IMG/VR virus record: IMGVR_UViG_3300046616_000111
Coordinates: 1-24,932 of that record
Direction: 5' to 3' (one strand)
DNA: 24,932 bases
Source: a virus
Below the pieces are notes generated by a model. That model worked only from the letters and a program-made list of their open reading frames with translations, did not search any database and was not told the origin of the DNA. Made by a program: the position numbers and the translations under genes. Shown here piece after piece: positions 1,597-24,932 of this stretch. The number at the start of each line of letters is the position of its first letter. Within the stretch, counting starts at the first letter, position 1.

Positions 1597-3126
1597 GTGT
1601 TACCCGATTGGAAGGCTCGATTAGCTGAGGTAGATCCTCGGCTGCTTGAAACTTCCGAGGGAAGGCGTGCTCTGTGTGAAACAGACCCCCTGATGTTCGC
1701 CCTCGTCTATCTTTCGCACCATCTGAAGGATGACGAGGGTGAAATCACCTTCGGAGAGCATCATTTTAAGTGGTTCGACCATGCAAAGAAGTGGATGGAC
1801 CCGGCCCCCGGCTTCCGAGAGTACCGAGATGCTTACTTAGCGCCACGTGCGAGCGGTAAGAGCACCTTCTGGTTCCTCATTTTGCCACTCTGGTGGGCTG
1901 CATACGGCTATTCCACCTTCTTGGCGGCCTTTGCCGACTCCGGACCGCAGGCCGAACTGCACCTCATGTCGTTCAAGCGTGAGTTAGAGGAAAATCCACT
2001 CCTTCGAGAGGACTTCCCCGAGCTTTGTGCTGCCAAAAAGCGCCAACGCGGCTCTGTTGAGGGTGACTCCAAGGGTATGAGGCTCTGTCAGAACGGCTTC
2101 ATCTTCATGGCCAAGGGTATTGACGCGTCTTCTCTCGGTATGAAGGTCGGTGCGAAGCGTCCAGACACCCTTTTACTCGACGACATTGAGCCAGACGAGG
2201 CAAATTACTCGCTCTACCAGATGGAACAGCGTCTAATCACCATTCAGGACGCCATCATGCCTCTTAACGAGCGCGCACGAGTGGTTTTGTCCGGAACAGT
2301 GACCATGCCGGGTTCTGTTACGCACCAGTTGGTCAAGTATGCGGCTAATTGGGTCGATGAAGAGAACCAGTTCGAGTGGATTGAGACTCAGAACTTCCGT
2401 GTGCACCACCAGTTGCCCATTGAAGAGAATGAAGACGGCACCAGGCGCTCTTTCTGGCCTGCCAAGTGGTCTTTGACTGAGCTGGAGAAGATTGAGCACA
2501 CTCGTTCGTACCAGAAGAACTTCCTGAACAACCCAATGGCGGTTGATTCGGAATACTGGACTATGGACGACTTCACTTATGGTGAGTTGGACCTTTGCAC
2601 GTCCACCATTCTGTCAATTGATGGTGCGGTAACTGCCAAGAAGGATTCTGACTACACTGGAATCGCAATTGTGGGCTTCAGGCCACGTCATAGGGACAGT
2701 TCCGGATTACAGCCACCTTGTTGTGTCGTAAAATACGTCCGTGCCGTAAAAATGCATGGAAACAACTTGCGAAATCTGGTTTTGAGCCTTTTGGAGTCGA
2801 ATCCTGAGGTCCGAGCCATTCTGGTAGAAACAAATCAGGGTGGAGACAAGTGGTTAGAGACATTGCATGGCATGCCCGTGAAGATTTACACAGTGCACAA
2901 CAAGGAGAAGAAGGAAAGCCGAGCTGGGCGACTCCTTAACCTCTACCAGATGCACCCATCACGTGTAATCCACGAGAAGGTATTCCCTCCGCTCGAAGAG
3001 CAGATGATTAACTTCCCGAAGGGTGCAAATGACGACCTTATCGATGCAGTTGGTAATGCCGTCTTGATGTATCAGCGACCTGAAAAGCGGCCAAAGGCCG
3101 GAATCAAGTACCGACAGCCTAGGTAA
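1597..3126 (+). CDS. terL: Terminase large subunit
   Basis: The ATP-driven motor and nuclease that pumps DNA into the prohead and cuts it to length; 509 aa, typical for the family. The ATPase part has a Walker A-like loop APRASGKST (residues 82-90) and a Walker B LLLDDIE (192-198), with E198 as likely catalytic glutamate. A coupling-type motif LSGT lies near 231-234. The RNase-H-like nuclease part has the expected acidic residues: D342 in 'SIDGAV', E411 in 'LVETN', and the D479/D480/D483 group in 'NDDLIDAVGNA'. GTG start, with AAGGAG overlapping the previous stop. The portal gene follows after 11 bp. The assignment rests on motifs and gene order. Confidence 0.95.
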   Translation: MLPDWKARLAEVDPRLLETSEGRRALCETDPLMFALVYLSHHLKDDEGEITFGEHHFKWFDHAKKWMDPAPGFREYRDAYLAPRASGKSTFWFLILPLWWAAYGYSTFLAAFADSGPQAELHLMSFKRELEENPLLREDFPELCAAKKRQRGSVEGDSKGMRLCQNGFIFMAKGIDASSLGMKVGAKRPDTLLLDDIEPDEANYSLYQMEQRLITIQDAIMPLNERARVVLSGTVTMPGSVTHQLVKYAANWVDEENQFEWIETQNFRVHHQLPIEENEDGTRRSFWPAKWSLTELEKIEHTRSYQKNFLNNPMAVDSEYWTMDDFTYGELDLCTSTILSIDGAVTAKKDSDYTGIAIVGFRPRHRDSSGLQPPCCVVKYVRAVKMHGNNLRNLVLSLLESNPEVRAILVETNQGGDKWLETLHGMPVKIYTVHNKEKKESRAGRLLNLYQMHPSRVIHEKVFPPLEEQMINFPKGANDDLIDAVGNAVLMYQRPEKRPKAGIKYRQPR

Positions 3127-3137
3127 GGAGGCAACGA

Positions 3138-4802
3138 ATGACCACTGCCATCAATAATCAGACGTTGGAAGATCTTCGTTGTGGATACTGGGAGCTTGTC
3201 GCTGCTCGTCCGGCGTATGAGCGTGCAGCAGCCTTTTACGAGGGTACTGTGGACGAAGTCTACAGTTCTCCAAAGGTTACCCGATTACTTTCGAAGTTCG
3301 GACTCGATAGCATCGAGTCCTTCAACTTTGCTCACATTCCTGTGGATGCAGTCTCCAACAAGCTCACTCTTCATTCGGTAAACGCTGACGAAGAGGGTAA
3401 TGAAGCTGGAGATGTAACCCAGAATGAGACAGTTAACTCTCTGATCGAAGATCTCTGGGACTATAACGAGCTGGATCAGGAATTACCTAATGTGTTCCGT
3501 AATACCGGTAAATACGGTGACGGTTACATCATGGTATGGCCTGTTGTCGGTGAAGAGCACGATGATTCCGTAACTCCAGGGTTCGATCCCTACGAGTCTG
3601 CTAAGCAACTCGAAATGGGTGACACCATTGTTGAAGATGACGAAATTGGCGTGATTCCAGTCAGCCGTAAGTCCATTGTGGCTGTTGACATTCTCCCGCT
3701 GGATCCTTTTACCACGCGCGTGTTCTACGACACCGAAAACCCTAAGAAGAAGACTTATGCTATCCGGTCTTGGGAAGAGGGTGAAGGTACAAACAAGTAC
3801 GTGCGTGTCAACCTTTACTACGCGGATCGTATTGAGCGTTGGTATCACGTAGGCAAGCCTTCCAAAAGGAAGAACTCTCAGCAGAAGTGGGAGTACTTCA
3901 CTCAGGATGGTAATCCTGCGGTACTCGTCAACCCGTTCGGTGAGGTACCTATTTTCCACTTCCGTACGGACCGTACATACGGTCGTCCGGACCACATCAA
4001 CGCTTATGGACCTCAGCTAGCCATCAACAAGCTGGTGACGTCCCACCTGGCCACTATTGACTACCAGAGCTTTCCCCAGCGTTATGCGCTGCTGGACCCT
4101 ATGGCAGATCAAAGTGGATTCCAGGGTGCAGATTCTGATCCGTTTGCGCCAGAAGACGCGGACAATGATCCAGACGATGACGATAACGAGTCTCAGCTTG
4201 AAGCCGATCCGGCTGTCGTATGGCAGTTGAGCGGCATGAAGGAAGTTGGTCAGTTCTCTGCGGCCGACTCTGATGCTTTCCTTAAGCCTTTCGACCGTTA
4301 TGTAAAGGCTCTGGCTCAGGCCACAGACACACCATTCCACTACTTCGACCGTACCGGCGAGCGTCCTCCAAGTGGGGAGAACATCCGTCAGGTCAATGAA
4401 ATGCTTAACAAGAAGGCGGGCTTCCGTCAGACCGGTTACGGCTCTGAGGTAAAGAAGTTCACCACTTTGGCTCTCACCATGATGGGCCAGGACGTTGAGC
4501 GTATCAACGTCGAGTGGGAACCTCTTGAGAACGTCAGTTCTTATGTGGAGTGGCAGGCGGTAAACGAAAAGATTGCCGCTGGAGTTCCAGTTGAAGTAGC
4601 GCTTATCGAAGCTGGTTATCGACCAGCCGTGGTTATGCAGTGGAAGAAGCAGCGTGAAAAGGACGCTGAAGACGCTATCGCTCAGCAGATTGAGATGGAG
4701 CGTCTCACCAATGCTATGAAGCACGAAGATAAGCCCACCCCAGATGTTCGCTATGCAGAACACAACCAGGCTGCCAAGCCAACCAGTAAGCCTCAGAAGT
4801 AG
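3138..4802 (+). CDS. Portal protein (SPP1 gp6-like family)
   Basis: Forms the dodecameric ring at one capsid vertex through which DNA enters and leaves; docks terminase and then the connector proteins. The 554-aa length and placement straight after the large terminase fit. The central and C-terminal parts have family features: 'YGRPDHINAYGPQLAINKL', the segment around 'PSGENIRQ' (about residue 411), then a long charged helical region (KKQREKDAEDAIAQQIEMERL). A strongly acidic stretch near residues 333-352 (DADNDPDDDDNES) probably lies in a loop. Preceded by AAGGAGG with a suitable spacing. It ends 26 bp before the scaffold gene. Confidence 0.93.
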   Translation: MTTAINNQTLEDLRCGYWELVAARPAYERAAAFYEGTVDEVYSSPKVTRLLSKFGLDSIESFNFAHIPVDAVSNKLTLHSVNADEEGNEAGDVTQNETVNSLIEDLWDYNELDQELPNVFRNTGKYGDGYIMVWPVVGEEHDDSVTPGFDPYESAKQLEMGDTIVEDDEIGVIPVSRKSIVAVDILPLDPFTTRVFYDTENPKKKTYAIRSWEEGEGTNKYVRVNLYYADRIERWYHVGKPSKRKNSQQKWEYFTQDGNPAVLVNPFGEVPIFHFRTDRTYGRPDHINAYGPQLAINKLVTSHLATIDYQSFPQRYALLDPMADQSGFQGADSDPFAPEDADNDPDDDDNESQLEADPAVVWQLSGMKEVGQFSAADSDAFLKPFDRYVKALAQATDTPFHYFDRTGERPPSGENIRQVNEMLNKKAGFRQTGYGSEVKKFTTLALTMMGQDVERINVEWEPLENVSSYVEWQAVNEKIAAGVPVEVALIEAGYRPAVVMQWKKQREKDAEDAIAQQIEMERLTNAMKHEDKPTPDVRYAEHNQAAKPTSKPQK

Positions 4803-5718: not shown

Positions 5719-6681
5719 ATGGCTATTCAGGACAACGGCGGATTAACCTACCTGGATAACTGGATCCCTATTGAGTGGGACTCCGAAGTTATCTCCCGTG
5801 TTATGGCGTCCAGCGCTATCGAAGCGACTGCTCAGCGTCACAGCATGGCCACCTCTACTAAGCGCATCCTGCGTCAGTCTGGCTACACCGTAACTTCTGG
5901 TAGTCAGTACACTCGTGACGACAGCTCTCTTGACTACGTAGTCCTGACCGCTCGTCGTTTCATGGGTCAGTCTGTCCTCGACGAGGACGACCTGTCTGAC
6001 ACTGAGATGATCGTTGATACCATCGCGCAGCGTGCTCTTGACTATGCGATCTCTTACTCCACTAGCTTCGACAATGCCTGCATCGGTGTAACTGCCGCTG
6101 AAGACTCTGGAACTGTAGCTGCTAAGGTTCCGTTCACTTCTATCTACCGTGCGGTACGTAACAACGGCGCTGGATCTGAATCTGGCTATGTAGCTGACAC
6201 TAACTACACAAACATGAGTAGTGCAGCCTCTGCGGCATCCACGTACTACGATGCTCTGTCTTCTGCACTCCAGAAGGTTGAGACTGGAGACTACTGGGAC
6301 GCCAACCAGGCTCTTATCATTGCTAACCCAGCTTTCCGTGACGTTCTGCGTCGGGTAAAGGACAATAACGGTACTCCTGTCTTCGTTCAGGGACAGGGTA
6401 GCGACGCGGGTCAGCCAGACCAGCTCTTTGGTGTAGATATCTTCTGGAGCCGTGGCGCTAAGACTAGCCCAACTATGAGTTCTACTCCAGGTGGAAATGC
6501 ACTCCTGGTATTCGTAGGTGATCGTACGCTTATGAAGTTGGGTGTACGTTCTGGACCTGAGTCTCGCCTCGACACTTCTCGTGCGCATGACACCATTGAC
6601 GACACTGCGGTTAAGTTCCGTACCCGTCGTGGATTCCAGATCGGTCGTATTGCCGGGTTCAGCGTTCTAGAGCGCGTCTAA
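5719..6681 (+). CDS. Major capsid protein (HK97-type fold)
   Basis: The shell protein, present in hundreds of copies. It has 320 aa with the N-terminal pattern 'GGLTYLDNWIPIEWDSEVI', 'ASSAIEATAQRHSM' and a C-terminal 'VKFRTRRGFQIGRIAGFSVL', all typical of HK97-fold capsid proteins in actinobacterial siphophages. There is no long N-terminal delta domain, consistent with a separate scaffold. Strong codon preference (CGT, GGT, AAG, CTC) suggests high expression, and AAAGGA precedes the ATG. A 13-bp perfect hairpin follows the stop. G+C in a 240-nt sample (5941-6180) is about 53%. Confidence 0.92.
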   Translation: MAIQDNGGLTYLDNWIPIEWDSEVISRVMASSAIEATAQRHSMATSTKRILRQSGYTVTSGSQYTRDDSSLDYVVLTARRFMGQSVLDEDDLSDTEMIVDTIAQRALDYAISYSTSFDNACIGVTAAEDSGTVAAKVPFTSIYRAVRNNGAGSESGYVADTNYTNMSSAASAASTYYDALSSALQKVETGDYWDANQALIIANPAFRDVLRRVKDNNGTPVFVQGQGSDAGQPDQLFGVDIFWSRGAKTSPTMSSTPGGNALLVFVGDRTLMKLGVRSGPESRLDTSRAHDTIDDTAVKFRTRRGFQIGRIAGFSVLERV

Positions 6682-6689
6682 TATCCAAT

Positions 6690-6719
6690 GTGTAGAGGCC
6701 TTGTTAAAGGCCTCTACAC
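6690..6719 (+). terminator. 13-bp perfect hairpin after capsid gene
   Basis: Perfect inverted repeat with arms 6690-6702 (GTGTAGAGGCCTT) and 6707-6719 (AAGGCCTCTACAC) and loop GTTA, starting eight bases after the capsid stop. No T-tract follows (CAATATC), so it is not a classical intrinsic terminator. It may partly terminate, pause RNA polymerase, or protect the capsid mRNA from 3' decay. With the hairpin at 6997-7036 it brackets the low-G+C gene between them. Confidence 0.6.
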
Positions 6720-6996: not shown

Positions 6997-7036
6997 ACCC
7001 TCCCGCCGATGCCGCCCTCACATTCGGCGGGAGGGT
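6997..7036 (+). terminator. 13-bp G+C-rich hairpin after low-G+C gene
   Basis: Perfect inverted repeat with arms 6997-7009 (ACCCTCCCGCCGA) and 7024-7036 (TCGGCGGGAGGGT) and a 14-nt loop, 13 bases after the stop of the 79-aa gene. It is followed by TCTCCATTTCTTC rather than a clean T-run. Probably a transcription terminator or attenuator; the strength of the stem is clear, the effect is inferred. Confidence 0.6.
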
Positions 7037-7877: not shown

Positions 7878-7879
7878 CT

Positions 7880-7908
7880 ACCCTCACGTATAATTCCACA
7901 CGTAGGGT
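7880..7908 (+). other. Bulged hairpin just after the stopper gene
   Basis: ACCCT-c-ACGT (7880-7889) pairs with ACGTAGGGT (7900-7908): nine base pairs with one bulged C and a ten-base loop. The arms partly cover a TATAAT (7889-7894), for which I find no convincing -35 box, and a TTGACA (7908-7913), for which I find no -10 at a usual distance. It is the first structured element of the 7878-8039 non-coding stretch. Its role is unknown. Confidence 0.4.
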
Positions 7909-7968
7909 TGACATGCTTTAACACCCGTAAACGGTGCGCGTAGATACCCCCTTACTCCGTAAAGGAAC

Positions 7969-8027
7969 AGGACCCTGCCGGGACGGCATAATGCTGTCCT
8001 TTCCTATGCGGCAGGGTCCTTTTCTAT
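7969..8027 (+). terminator. Branched rho-independent terminator inside the head-tail operon
   Basis: Outer 12-bp perfect stem with arms 7969-7980 (AGGACCCTGCCG) and 8009-8020 (CGGCAGGGTCCT), followed directly by TTTCTATT. Inside the loop lies a second hairpin, 7981-7999, in which GGACgGCA pairs with TGCtGTCC. The T-rich run leads straight to GGGGAGG (8030-8036) and the ATG of the next gene at 8040. This is the most terminator-like element in the rightward operon. It probably lets part of transcription through and so lowers expression of the downstream neck genes, unless an unseen antitermination or promoter compensates. Confidence 0.7.
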
Positions 8028-8039
8028 TGGGGAGGTGTC

Positions 8040-9752: not shown

Positions 9753-9782
9753 CAACGGCCTCTCCTTCTGGAGGGGCCGTTG
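9753..9782 (+). terminator. 13-bp hairpin after the tail tube gene
   Basis: Arms 9753-9765 (CAACGGCCTCTCC) and 9770-9782 (GGAGGGGCCGTTG) pair with one T·G wobble around the tetraloop TTCT. It begins 15 bases after the tube stop. There is no T-run after it (TGCGTGTC). Together with the similar hairpin after the capsid gene it suggests that mRNA of the two most abundant virion proteins is trimmed or protected here and that distal transcription is reduced. Confidence 0.6.
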
Positions 9783-9785
9783 TGC

Positions 9786-9815
9786 GTGTCACGGGTATTG
9801 TTGTCCTGCTAGAAT
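9786..9815 (+). promoter_or_regulatory. Extended -10 promoter candidate before tail chaperone genes
   Basis: TAGAAT at 9810-9815 (five of six matches to TATAAT) is preceded by TGC, giving an extended -10 motif (TGn). GTGTCA at 9786-9791 lies 18 bases upstream with four of six matches to the -35 box. It sits directly after the tube-gene hairpin and about 40 bases before the chaperone ATG, so it could restart transcription of the tape-measure part of the operon. Confidence 0.35.
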
Positions 9816-21942: not shown

Positions 21943-22974
21943 ATGAGTTCGAACACCACAAGGGTGTCTCTCTACAAGCCAGCCGGTGGAGAGAACGTTA
22001 ACGTCACAACGGACCTGGATAACAACTTCGACAAGATCGACACGAACCTCAATTTCCGTGTCGTGGCCAATGCTACTGCTCGAAATGCAATCAGCCCCTA
22101 CTGGGAGGGGTTGAATGTACGGCAGACGAACGACGGTACCTGCTGGGTCTCTAACGGTTCGGTGCCTATCTCGGCGTCCTGGGATCAGCTCGCTACGGCT
22201 AACACCTACACAACTGCGGTGAACGTGGCTCCGGCCTCTACGGGCTCGGCTGCGGTCATTGTCCGTACAGCGGGCGATGGTGCAGACCGTATCCGTTTCC
22301 GTGCGGACGGCCAGATTATCTTCGGAAATGGTACTGGTGCTCCGGATACGAACTTCTATCGTTCGGCTGCGGACAACCTCAAGACTGATGACAACTTCAC
22401 TGCCAATGGCACCTTGACGGCAGGTGGTGACGTCAATGTCGGAGGTAACCTAACCTTCACAGCGAACTCTGCGGAAAAGAACGCAGACTTGTCGGGTACT
22501 ACTACAGTAAGTAACACCACGTCCGAAAGTGTAATTGCTACCTATACGGTTCCCGCTAACGACATGGTGGTTGGAGCTACGTATAAGTTGACTGCATGGG
22601 GCACTGCAAGTGTAACGGGTACACCTACTTTGACTTGGAAGAATAAGGCGGGAGGTGTGGCGGGTACAGGTAACGCTACCGTTCCTGCTACAGCATCGTC
22701 CGGAGTTACCAACAAGGTGTGGAAGGTTGAAGCACTCTTTGTGTGTCTTACTACGGGTGGTGCTGGTACCTGGCACGGAAACTTAACTGTTCAGGAAGGT
22801 GTGTCTGTAGCGGGTGCTAACCCTGTCGTGGCGGTAACTCGTATGGACGGTAACAGCACGACTTCTATCGATACGACTGCCTCTAAGGACTTAGTGATCA
22901 CATTTACTTGGAGTGCAGCCAGTGCGTCTAACAGTTTGATCTGTCGAGGCTATACCGCAGAGCGTATTGCATGA
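21943..22974 (+). CDS. Minor tail protein / putative tail fibre
   Basis: A 343-residue protein that begins 'LYKPAGGENVNVTTDLDNNFDKID', a highly typical N-terminus of actinophage minor tail (fibre) proteins. Next come 'YWEGLNVRQTNDGTCWVSNGS', a beta-helix-like stretch ('FTANGTLTAGGDVNVGGNLTF') and a C-terminal beta-sandwich ('VIATYTVPANDMVVGATYKLTAWGTASVTG') of the kind that trimerises and binds the receptor. It follows the tail-tip protein after 24 bp with GAGGAGG upstream. Being last in the rightward operon and containing a receptor-type fold, it is the best host-range candidate in the window. Its stop is directly followed by the bidirectional terminator. Confidence 0.8.
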   Translation: MSSNTTRVSLYKPAGGENVNVTTDLDNNFDKIDTNLNFRVVANATARNAISPYWEGLNVRQTNDGTCWVSNGSVPISASWDQLATANTYTTAVNVAPASTGSAAVIVRTAGDGADRIRFRADGQIIFGNGTGAPDTNFYRSAADNLKTDDNFTANGTLTAGGDVNVGGNLTFTANSAEKNADLSGTTTVSNTTSESVIATYTVPANDMVVGATYKLTAWGTASVTGTPTLTWKNKAGGVAGTGNATVPATASSGVTNKVWKVEALFVCLTTGGAGTWHGNLTVQEGVSVAGANPVVAVTRMDGNSTTSIDTTASKDLVITFTWSAASASNSLICRGYTAERIA

Positions 22975-22976
22975 GT

Positions 22977-23005
22977 AAAGGGCCCCTCAAATGAGGGGCC
23001 CTTTT
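22977..23005. terminator. Bidirectional rho-independent terminator
   Basis: A 12-bp perfect stem: AAAGGGCCCCTC (22977-22988), loop AAAT, GAGGGGCCCTTT (22993-23004), then T at 23005. It begins two bases after the tail fibre stop and lies nine bases before the end of the opposing leftward gene. The rightward strand ends in TTTT; on the leftward strand the run is TTTACT. It separates the converging virion and glycosyltransferase operons. Confidence 0.9.
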
Positions 23006-23013
23006 GTGTAGTC

Positions 23014-23361
23014 CTATGGAGTGCTCTCTACTACAGGCAAATACATGCACTTCACTGTTCCGTGAAGTCGAACATTAGTGGGATGACCTAGGGTGGAATA
23101 CGTGAGTATTGCCCACAGTACCCCAGTGTTGTTGTAGAAGTTATCGATGTAGTTTCCCTCAGTATCCAAAGGCATTGGGGCTACCCAAGCATACAGATCT
23201 GAGGTGTTTCCCGAAGCTGGAGTGAAAGCATTACTCCAGAGGTACATGTCCTCCGGAGCATCTCCATCGAGCTGGAACGCTGCGATGTCTACCATCGAAA
23301 GGGTATCTTCGAGTACGAAGGTCTCGTCTACCTCGAAGGTTTTTACATAGGCGTCTGCCAT
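23014..23361 (-). CDS. Hypothetical protein with hairpin-controlled ribosome site (115 aa)
   Basis: A 115-residue acidic protein starting MADAYVKTFEVDETFVLED. The sequence is beta-rich and aromatic ('EDMYLWSNAFTPASGNTSDLYAWVAPMPL', 'NYIDNFYNNTGVLWAILTYST') and ends 'HGTVKCMYLPVVESTP', like a small jelly-roll or virion accessory domain; I do not recognise it. The ribosome site GGGAGGA (23376-23370, eight bases before the ATG) lies in the 3' arm of a long hairpin. It is the last gene of the leftward operon, separated by 57 bp from the gene before, and ends just before the bidirectional terminator. It may be translated only when the hairpin opens. Confidence 0.75.
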   Translation of the reverse strand: MADAYVKTFEVDETFVLEDTLSMVDIAAFQLDGDAPEDMYLWSNAFTPASGNTSDLYAWVAPMPLDTEGNYIDNFYNNTGVLWAILTYSTLGHPTNVRLHGTVKCMYLPVVESTP

Positions 23362-23364
23362 GAC

Positions 23365-23411
23365 AAAAATCCTCCCGTTAACTGCCGGTAACTTGCAGTG
23401 TAACAGGAGGA
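23365..23411 (-). promoter_or_regulatory. Hairpin that buries the ribosome site and is followed by T5 (terminator/attenuator-like)
   Basis: On the minus strand the 5' arm (23411-23395: TCCTCCTGTTACACTGC) pairs with the 3' arm (23385-23370: GCAGTTAACGGGAGGA) around a nine-base loop: 15 Watson-Crick pairs, a T·G wobble and a single bulged C. The Shine-Dalgarno GGGAGGA is the outer part of the 3' arm. TTTTT (23369-23365) follows at once, and the ATG comes three bases later. The element can therefore act as an intrinsic terminator for the four upstream genes, as a block to translation of the last gene, or both. Sequence pairing is certain; its effect in vivo is not. Confidence 0.75.
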
Positions 23412-23418
23412 CTTCATC

Positions 23419-23646
23419 TTACAGACCCTCGACTCGGATGACCTGCACTCGTCCGACGTTAATCGGATTGGGCGAAAGGGACTGTAAGTAATTCCTTACG
23501 AACCCCAGGATCTGAGCTTCGGTAGCTCCGGAAAGAGCTGCGGATCCCTTAGCGATCTCTACCTTGATGTAGAGATTCTGGCTATCGTCACTGGGGCCCG
23601 AACTTGTGATCTCGTAAACGGTGGACACGATTTGCTGAGTTGGCAT
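23419..23646 (-). CDS. Hypothetical small protein (75 aa)
   Basis: A 75-residue protein starting MPTQQIVSTVYEITS. It has alternating strands ('QNLYIKVEIAKGSAAL') and a helix ('ATEAQILGFVRNYLQSL'), ending with 'INVGRVQVIRVEGL', a compact alpha/beta pattern without cysteines or membrane segments. I chose ATG 23646 because AGGAGA, overlapping the preceding stop, lies five bases upstream; an in-frame ATG at 23682 would overlap the previous gene. It lies in the leftward operon between the SAP-like gene and the hairpin-controlled gene. Function unknown; a virion accessory role is possible given the neighbours. Confidence 0.65.
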   Translation of the reverse strand: MPTQQIVSTVYEITSSGPSDDSQNLYIKVEIAKGSAALSGATEAQILGFVRNYLQSLSPNPINVGRVQVIRVEGL

Positions 23647-23654
23647 GGTCTCTC

Positions 23655-24119
23655 CTATCGAACGTTGACTCCATAGACCCACTTGAAGGCGTTAGTGCGG
23701 CTGTGGACACGATAAGGAGGACCGTAAGGTTCCAGTTGCATTGCCAGAGCACAACCCACTACCTGACGGAGATTGGTTTCATGCTCCCAAGTCTCCAGGG
23801 TGTAGCCACGGTCGAACTCCTTGAGAAAGACGCCATCCTCTACCCACTCGGCACCTGGTGCGCGCACCAGAGGCTCTACAGGGCGTTCTGCGGACGTCTC
23901 AGGCTCAGGCTGGGGCTCGGGCTCTGTGTCGGCCTCAACGTCCGTTAGGACGCCGTCTGGGACGGGTGCGGCCTCATCCCCATAGTAGTCCTTGATGTCC
24001 TGAGCTGTGTCGTACTCCTTCAGCTCTTTGATCATGTCGGCCTTGGCCCGATGGACCTTCAACCCACGCTCTTCGCAGAGAACCTTAAGCTCTACTGCCT
24101 TTAATTCACCGTAGTTCAT
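23655..24119 (-). CDS. SAP/HeH-like N-terminal domain protein with acidic linker (154 aa)
   Basis: A 154-residue protein. The N-terminus (about 5-36, 'LKAVELKVLCEERGLKVHR' then 'KADMIKELKEYD') has the helix-extended-loop-helix pattern of SAP or HeH/LEM-like motifs, which often bind DNA or are found in phage head and tail accessory proteins. A Pro/Glu-rich acidic linker (EADTEPEPQPEPETSAE) follows. The C-terminal part (roughly 85-154, 'GAEWVEDGVFLKEFDRGYTL', 'RTNAFKWVYGVNVR') looks like a separate small domain. Its ATG overlaps the glycosyltransferase stop as ATGA. It is followed after eight bases by the next small gene. Function unknown; fold impression only. Confidence 0.7.
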   Translation of the reverse strand: MNYGELKAVELKVLCEERGLKVHRAKADMIKELKEYDTAQDIKDYYGDEAAPVPDGVLTDVEADTEPEPQPEPETSAERPVEPLVRAPGAEWVEDGVFLKEFDRGYTLETWEHETNLRQVVGCALAMQLEPYGPPYRVHSRTNAFKWVYGVNVR

Positions 24120-24703
24120 CGTGCATCACCTTGTGTGGGTAGTCCCGAAGTATTGAGGCCGTGCGCATTCCAGAGCCAGGTTCGCTGCGGAACATGGACA
24201 ATTTCAGCGCCCTTGGCAATGCATTCTACAGTGAACTGGTAATCCTCGCCATAGCGTTGTCCATCCACCAGTTTACCAGGTTCTACGTCCCGGAAACCGA
24301 CCTCTTGAGCCAATTCAGTCCGGACTAGCGTTGTGATGGTGGTCTGGGTTGGATTCTCGGGATCGAAGACCTTTCCGAAATGAGGAAGAGGGTCGTATCG
24401 AAATCCGATTGGGTCGTACCAGGTGAAGAGGTAATCCGCTCCAGTCTCCTGAGCAGCGCGTACCAGAATTTCCAGGTGCTGTTTCTTGAGTTGATCATCG
24501 CTATCTAAGAATGCTGTCCACGGCGTACTTACCTTCTGAAGCCCTCGGTTACGTGTAACCGCTGCACCTTCACGATGCTTGTCGACTTCAATGATTATAC
24601 CCGCAGGCGGATAGCTCTGCATTAGGATCGAACCAGTCGCTCGCTTGGTCATTCCATTTGATAAACGCGCGGGGTGTGTTGGCACTACGAAAGTCACATC
24701 CAT
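24116..24703 (-). CDS. GT-A glycosyltransferase (GT2-like)
   Basis: A 195-residue protein that probably transfers a sugar from a nucleotide donor to an unknown acceptor in the host cytoplasm. N-terminal 'MDVTFVVPTHPAR' is the donor-binding strand. 'GAAVTRNRGLQKVSTPWTAFLDSDDQL' carries the metal-binding DxD motif at residues 67-69 (D-S-D-D), and 'GEDYQFT' (about 152-158) is the usual acceptor-side acidic motif. It is shorter than many GT2 enzymes but holds the core. ATG at 24703 with AGGAAGG upstream. It overlaps the preceding glycosyltransferase by 10 bp. Being next to tail fibre genes on the opposite strand suggests modification of virion proteins or host surface, but neither is shown. Confidence 0.9.
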   Translation of the reverse strand: MDVTFVVPTHPARLSNGMTKRATGSILMQSYPPAGIIIEVDKHREGAAVTRNRGLQKVSTPWTAFLDSDDQLKKQHLEILVRAAQETGADYLFTWYDPIGFRYDPLPHFGKVFDPENPTQTTITTLVRTELAQEVGFRDVEPGKLVDGQRYGEDYQFTVECIAKGAEIVHVPQRTWLWNAHGLNTSGLPTQGDAR

Positions 24704-24932
24704 AGCTGCCCTTCCTGTGACCTATGCCCCCATAGATGAACGGCGAATGCGTCCTTCTGCCGTCCCTTTTCGATGAGTTCGCTGAAGTTGTCCGACCCGT
24801 ACGGGATCTCTTCATGGTGTACGGGATAGAAAGTGTCCTTCGAGTGGACCTGTACTGCGTAGTTACCCGCACGCCAGATTCGTGTAAGGTGCTGGGGTCC
24901 GGTGGCGACTTCCATTCCTACATTGCCGTACT
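24694..24932 (-). CDS. Partial glycosyltransferase, C-terminal part (GT32-like), cut by right window edge
   Basis: The frame is open to the window edge, so the N-terminus with the DxD motif is outside. The visible ~78 codons contain 'ATGPQHLTRIW', 'DTFYPVHHEEIP' and near the end 'DAFAVHLWGHRSQ'. GP..LT, FYP and HLW are typical of the C-terminal half of GT32/alpha-1,4-glycosyltransferase-type enzymes. An internal ATG at 24915 is unlikely to be the start, since it would leave no catalytic domain and has no clear ribosome site. It overlaps the next glycosyltransferase gene by 10 bp, so the two are translated together. Family call is by motif only. Confidence 0.75.
   Translation of the reverse strand, partial: YGNVGMEVATGPQHLTRIWRAGNYAVQVHSKDTFYPVHHEEIPYGSDNFSELIEKGRQKDAFAVHLWGHRSQEGQLWM

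Follow-up and report, generated by a model that had tools for sequence, protein, structure and literature searches.

The last two genes of a leftward gene run in this phage are separated by a hairpin that carries the ribosome site of the final gene, encoding 115 aa, in its 3' arm and a promoter-like element in its 5' arm. The reading we favor, at somewhat less than even confidence, is that the hairpin is the intrinsic terminator of the glycosyltransferase, SAP-like and 75-aa genes, and that the last gene has a promoter of its own overlapping this terminator. RNA polymerase arriving from upstream would complete the hairpin and stop at a tract of five U residues; in any RNA that reads through, the ribosome site would be locked in the stem, leaving the 115-aa gene silent on those transcripts. 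The gene would be transcribed instead from a promoter of the extended -10 type lying in the 5' arm, with a start near 23390 in the loop. RNA begun there, being devoid of the 5' arm, would escape both the terminator and the lock and would end at a convergent terminator at 22977-23004. The 115-aa gene would in this way form an insulated, separately transcribed cassette. A fuller version of this proposal holds that the same ~42 nt serve as operon terminator, as translational lock on read-through RNA and, through the 5' arm, as the next gene's promoter, that the two transcription units are completely insulated, and that a relative retains the plan of a terminator with an embedded promoter, its unrelated stem sequence notwithstanding. 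We consider this a possibility, though a rather unlikely one.

The window, that is, the whole stretch of 24,932 nt analyzed here, is IMG/VR record IMGVR_UViG_3300046616_000111, a 24.9-kb contig of an uncultured actinobacterial virus. Its closest cultured relatives are Streptomyces phages, for example Zuko and KimJongPhill (capsid about 43% identical). The leftward run comprises the glycosyltransferase gene, the gene for an SAP-like 154-aa protein, and the 75-aa and 115-aa genes, and meets rightward tail genes at 22977-23004. In the order of leftward transcription, the features of the region are:

24116-24703, minus strand: family 2 glycosyltransferase gene, upstream within the leftward run.
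23655-24119, minus strand: gene for the 154-aa protein, also upstream within the run; its SAP-domain match is weak, under the Pfam cut-off.
23419-23646, minus strand: 75-aa gene, with its stop codon 7 nt ahead of the stem.
23370-23411, minus strand: hairpin of 16 pairs (15 Watson-Crick and one U-G), with a bulged C at 23400 and a 9-nt loop.
23411-23395, minus strand: 5' arm, made of UCCUCCUGUUA (23411-23401), the bulged C (23400) and ACUGC (23399-23395).
23397-23405, minus strand: extended -10-like element TGtTACACT, in the 5' arm; predicted start at about 23390, in the loop.
23394-23386, minus strand: loop, AAGUUACCG.
23385-23370, minus strand: 3' arm, made of GCAGU (23385-23381) and UAACGGGAGGA (23380-23370).
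23370-23376, minus strand: GGGAGGA, Shine-Dalgarno sequence of the 115-aa gene, within the 3' arm and 8 nt ahead of the ATG.
23365-23369, minus strand: U5 tract (terminator tail), abutting the stem and followed by GUC and the AUG.
23014-23361, minus strand: 115-aa gene, the final leftward gene, with its AUG at 23361-23359.
22977-23004, both strands: perfect convergent hairpin (d scores +55 and +41), a predicted bidirectional terminator for the 115-aa gene on one side and the rightward 343-aa tail gene on the other.

An earlier note on this DNA had described a hairpin of 15 bp plus a wobble pair with a T5 tail at 23365-23411, and had read GGGAGGA in its 3' arm as the ribosome site of the 115-aa gene. 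Coordinates and description proved exact, the motif being found at 23376-23370. Calculated with fixed parameters, like all folding energies given here, the stem-loop by itself has a free energy of -22.8 kcal/mol, and its terminator d score is +24.7. The minus-strand segment 23345-23430 folds at -41.2 kcal/mol, compared with -21.6 +/- 2.9 for shuffled sequences (z -6.8), and none of 200 shuffles equaled it. The U tail is present on the leftward strand only, the plus strand being without one, which identifies the hairpin as a leftward element. A stable stem followed directly by a U tract on the transcribed strand is the anatomy of an intrinsic terminator; our terminator scan did not call it because the scan's loop limit is 8 and the loop measures 9 nt. 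The proposal that the structure ends the glycosyltransferase operon is thus borne out as regards anatomy (d score and U5), and from that anatomy we infer termination itself. Intrinsic terminators of the lambda tR2 type similarly have a stem and U tract a few nucleotides past a stop codon (PMC4824070). The window differs from tR2 in that the next gene's ribosome site shares the stem.

GGGAGGA is the sole plausible ribosome site for the 115-aa gene. The predicted cost of opening GGAGGA at 28 C is 18-19.5 kcal/mol. Other gene starts of the window that were examined need 0.9-13.7 kcal/mol, so that this is the most strongly buried among them. When the upstream sequence was resampled, the cost fell from 18.3 to 5.1 +/- 2.5 kcal/mol, with no value as high in 500 trials. 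On long transcripts, therefore, the Shine-Dalgarno sequence is predicted to be sequestered in a stable helix, as it is in gene e of phage T4. The ORF behind it has coding statistics resembling those of its neighbors (0.15 per codon, against -0.74 +/- 0.17 when shuffled). Its product has no match in Pfam or PHROG; a single-sequence structure model is beta-rich (pLDDT 59) and has no significant match in the PDB.

The promoter-like element TGtTACACT lies 16 nt past the stop codon of the 75-aa gene. A related contig, IMGVR_UViG_3300003322_000196 (hereafter L002), has TGcTATAAT 15 nt past the same stop codon, directly ahead of the 5' arm of its own hairpin, and the start predicted from it, at about 3256, falls within that arm. 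Sites as good as that of the window occupy 0.00032 of positions, a rough figure since the weights of the scoring matrix are approximate. The chance of finding such a site within 7 positions of its place in L002 is about 0.2%, a post hoc estimate since the similarity was noticed before testing. As a -10 hexamer TACACT is only moderate, and a good -35 is absent. A second candidate -10, TAAGAT at the stop codon (start at about 23409), scores below TGtTACACT and was set aside. Nor is the T4-type late promoter TATAAATA present, the element reading TGTTACACT. In an RNA that starts in the loop, opening the ribosome site would cost 5-6.6 rather than about 18 kcal/mol, inside the range of the other genes. 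With its 5' end inside the hairpin, this RNA would run past the terminator and leave the 115-aa start exposed. RNA from the start predicted in L002 would have a shorter stem, set apart from the U tract. The suggestion that a transcript beginning within the 5' arm would turn the gene on has thereby gained a plausible, computationally predicted start point, position-matched in L002; its companion idea of a regulated switch has not fared as well (see below).

An extended -10-like sequence also follows a hairpin elsewhere in the window. This hairpin, after the tail-tube gene, lies at 9753-9782 in the window and at 5720-5751 in the related contig L012; its arms have changed and the pairing is retained. 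The -10-like sequences behind it are TGCTAGAAT (9807-9815) and TGATAGAAT (5775-5783), respectively.

L002 is the only syntenic relative found for the junction. Viral contigs were scanned with five proteins (the 115-aa, 75-aa, SAP-like, glycosyltransferase and 343-aa proteins). No relative with the junction appeared among the genome contigs scanned, the phages collection had no match to the 75-aa protein or to the DNA of 22900-24932, and an exact-pattern search for the ribosome site and tail gave no match. Partial matches to the hairpin DNA in the phages collection, at E values of 3-10, were treated as chance. Identity between L002 and the window is 84% for the 75-aa gene, 83% for the glycosyltransferase and 56% for the convergent tail gene. 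At the equivalent place L002 has a terminator-type hairpin, GACAUAGCCCC UGAGCU GGGGCUAUGUC UUUUU, with a score of +39. Its stem is unrelated in sequence to that of the window, and the arms cannot be aligned pair by pair. The ribosome site of its last gene, ACGGAGGAAG, is just past the stem and outside it, with an opening cost of about 2 kcal/mol. Between these two phages, then, comparison of the sequences indicates that the junction keeps a terminator-type hairpin and that only the window hides its ribosome site there. The search for compensatory changes called for in the earlier note needs alignable arms, which these two stems do not offer; the type of hairpin recurs, and neither the stem sequence nor the sequestration does. 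The convergent hairpin at 22977-23004 also has a counterpart in L002, at about 3630-3657, near-perfect, likewise placed where the rightward tail gene and the last leftward gene converge, and with arms that differ between the phages.

The last gene of L002 has no detectable similarity to the 115-aa gene, and this difference at a conserved junction fits the expectation for an exchangeable cassette. Five further contigs of about 51-135 kb (L004-L008) carry a glycosyltransferase 66-72% identical to that of the window, with a convergent tail gene of like type opposite it. They lack the 75-aa gene and have at most one short ORF between the glycosyltransferase and tail genes; with the intervening genes replaced, the spot appears exchangeable. 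In moron-type cassettes of phages, one gene occupies an exchangeable spot and brings both a promoter and a terminator of its own. The 115-aa gene is like them in being a single gene, with its own predicted promoter and terminator, in such a spot; it departs from them in that the predicted promoter and the upstream terminator overlap.

The chief competing idea is that the hairpin is opened by ribosomes completing translation of the 75-aa gene. The 115-aa gene would then be read from the 75-aa RNA, and its output would follow that of the 75-aa protein: a ribosome at the 75-aa stop codon would cover UCCUCC in the 5' arm, preventing the terminator from forming and freeing the next ribosome site. 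The stop codon is indeed only 7 nt from the stem, and covering 12-14 nt past it brings the opening cost from 18.5 down to about 6.7 kcal/mol. In the tR2 model, intrinsic terminators near stop codons are repressed by a ribosome sitting at the stop codon, and an Escherichia coli ribosome at a stop 8-9 bp from tR2 nearly fully repressed termination (PMC4824070). The geometry, however, is not conserved, the spacer in L002 being about 22 nt and its ribosome site unhidden, and other hairpins of the phage lie 5-14 nt past stop codons with no hidden start. Given both facts, distance alone decides nothing, and we regard translation-coupled opening as unlikely, though not greatly so. One could also envision an ordinary terminator with an incidental overlap, the ribosome site falling within a purine-rich 3' arm because the next start is close, and the 115-aa gene being expressed weakly by read-through, or hardly at all. 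Of the window's six strong intergenic hairpins, three have GGAGG or GGGAGG in the 3' arm, and in two of these, at 7024-7036 and 9770-9782, it is no ribosome site; the ribosome site of L002 is just outside the terminator. With GGAGG so common in 3' arms, a ribosome site in such an arm needs only a nearby start codon, and the lower part of the stem may have been co-opted for this role instead of having been shaped for it. Incidental overlap nevertheless leaves the position-matched promoter-like element unexplained, and has to accommodate both the exceptional burial of the 115-aa start and a clearly coding gene, which needs some means of expression. We find it quite unlikely.

The earlier note had gone further, envisaging a combined attenuator and translational switch. 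A regulated RNA switch, whether attenuator, thermometer or protein-bound operator, would sense a signal and toggle termination and translation together. Both functions are energetically coupled in one stem, and the 5' arm can pair with GAGG just upstream before the 3' arm is made. At about -7 kcal/mol, however, this pairing is far weaker than the stem at -22.8 kcal/mol, and no strong antiterminator was found. No Rfam 15 family (riboswitch, attenuator) matches the hairpin region at gathering score, and no part of the stem is conserved in L002. Folding at several temperatures, as the note had advised, left the ribosome site closed, with an opening cost of 14.6 kcal/mol at 45 C and 12.5 kcal/mol at 55 C, which rules out an RNA thermometer. 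The exposed ribosome site of L002 and the occurrence of GGAGG in other 3' arms where it is no ribosome site likewise leave the switch unsupported, and we judge it very improbable. With the last gene insulated and transcribed separately, the anatomy is accounted for and no switching signal is needed. In favor of a terminator overlapped by the last gene's promoter we count the stability of the fold relative to shuffled sequences, the terminator score, the leftward-only U5, the L002 hairpin, the position-matched -10-like element, the similar -10-like elements behind the tail-tube hairpin, the lower opening cost predicted for RNA begun in the loop, and the exchange of the last gene between the two phages. 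Against it stand the poor -35 and moderate -10, a junction known from two phages only, and the 5-6 kcal/mol still required to open the ribosome site in RNA from about 23390. The nearness of the stop codon also means that the terminator may work poorly during translation of the 75-aa gene.

These properties invite comparison with genes e, soc, 49 and I-TevI of T4 and mobE of phage Aeh1. In these genes, a 3' arm hides the ribosome site on long upstream transcripts, as predicted for the window; for gene e and I-TevI, the position of a late promoter deprives late RNA of the 5' arm of the hairpin that holds the ribosome site, and this RNA is translated (PMC3014915, PMC2988022). The window has a candidate for a promoter so placed. 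The differences are that the window stem also has an intrinsic-terminator tail, that its promoter resembles an extended -10 rather than the T4 late type, both promoter and translational effect being predicted, and that the hiding is absent from L002. The arrangement in L002 is that of seg43(25) of Aeromonas phage 25, where a ribosome site directly follows the base of a very stable hairpin; unlike L002, seg43(25) has no terminator role described in the excerpt available (PMC2988022). The parts resemble known phage tricks, and by this analogy the terminator is most likely the addition to the gene e/I-TevI logic. If our preferred reading is true, a compact phage genome has abutted two transcription units with no spare bases: with a promoter inside the upstream terminator, the gene's own transcript would be immune, and foreign transcripts would be both stopped and untranslatable. 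The T4 gene e principle would then extend to actinobacterial phages, and a simple insulator design would be on offer.

Other noncoding elements of the window deserve mention. A 160-nt non-coding leader precedes an HK97-gp10-like gene at 7878-8039, at 3862-4020 in L012, near 6557 in L017 and near 2927 (minus strand) in L018; of these four contigs, L017 is nearly identical to L012. The first 90 nt are 92% identical between the window and L012, against 79-81% for the flanking genes. The leader contains a conserved TATAAT, the sequence TTGACATGC(T/C)TTAACACCC and a two-codon ORF (ATG CTT TAA or ATG CCT TAA); next come a terminator-like hairpin enclosing a second hairpin and, directly after it, the ribosome site GGGGAGG (GAGGAGG in L018). 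Neither the window copy nor that of L012 matches Rfam, and the leader, judged from its sequence, is a candidate leader RNA or attenuator. Strong hairpins with no clear U tract follow the major capsid gene (6690-6719) and the 79-aa gene (6997-7036); L012 lacks the 79-aa gene together with the first of these hairpins and keeps the second, at about 2980-3020.
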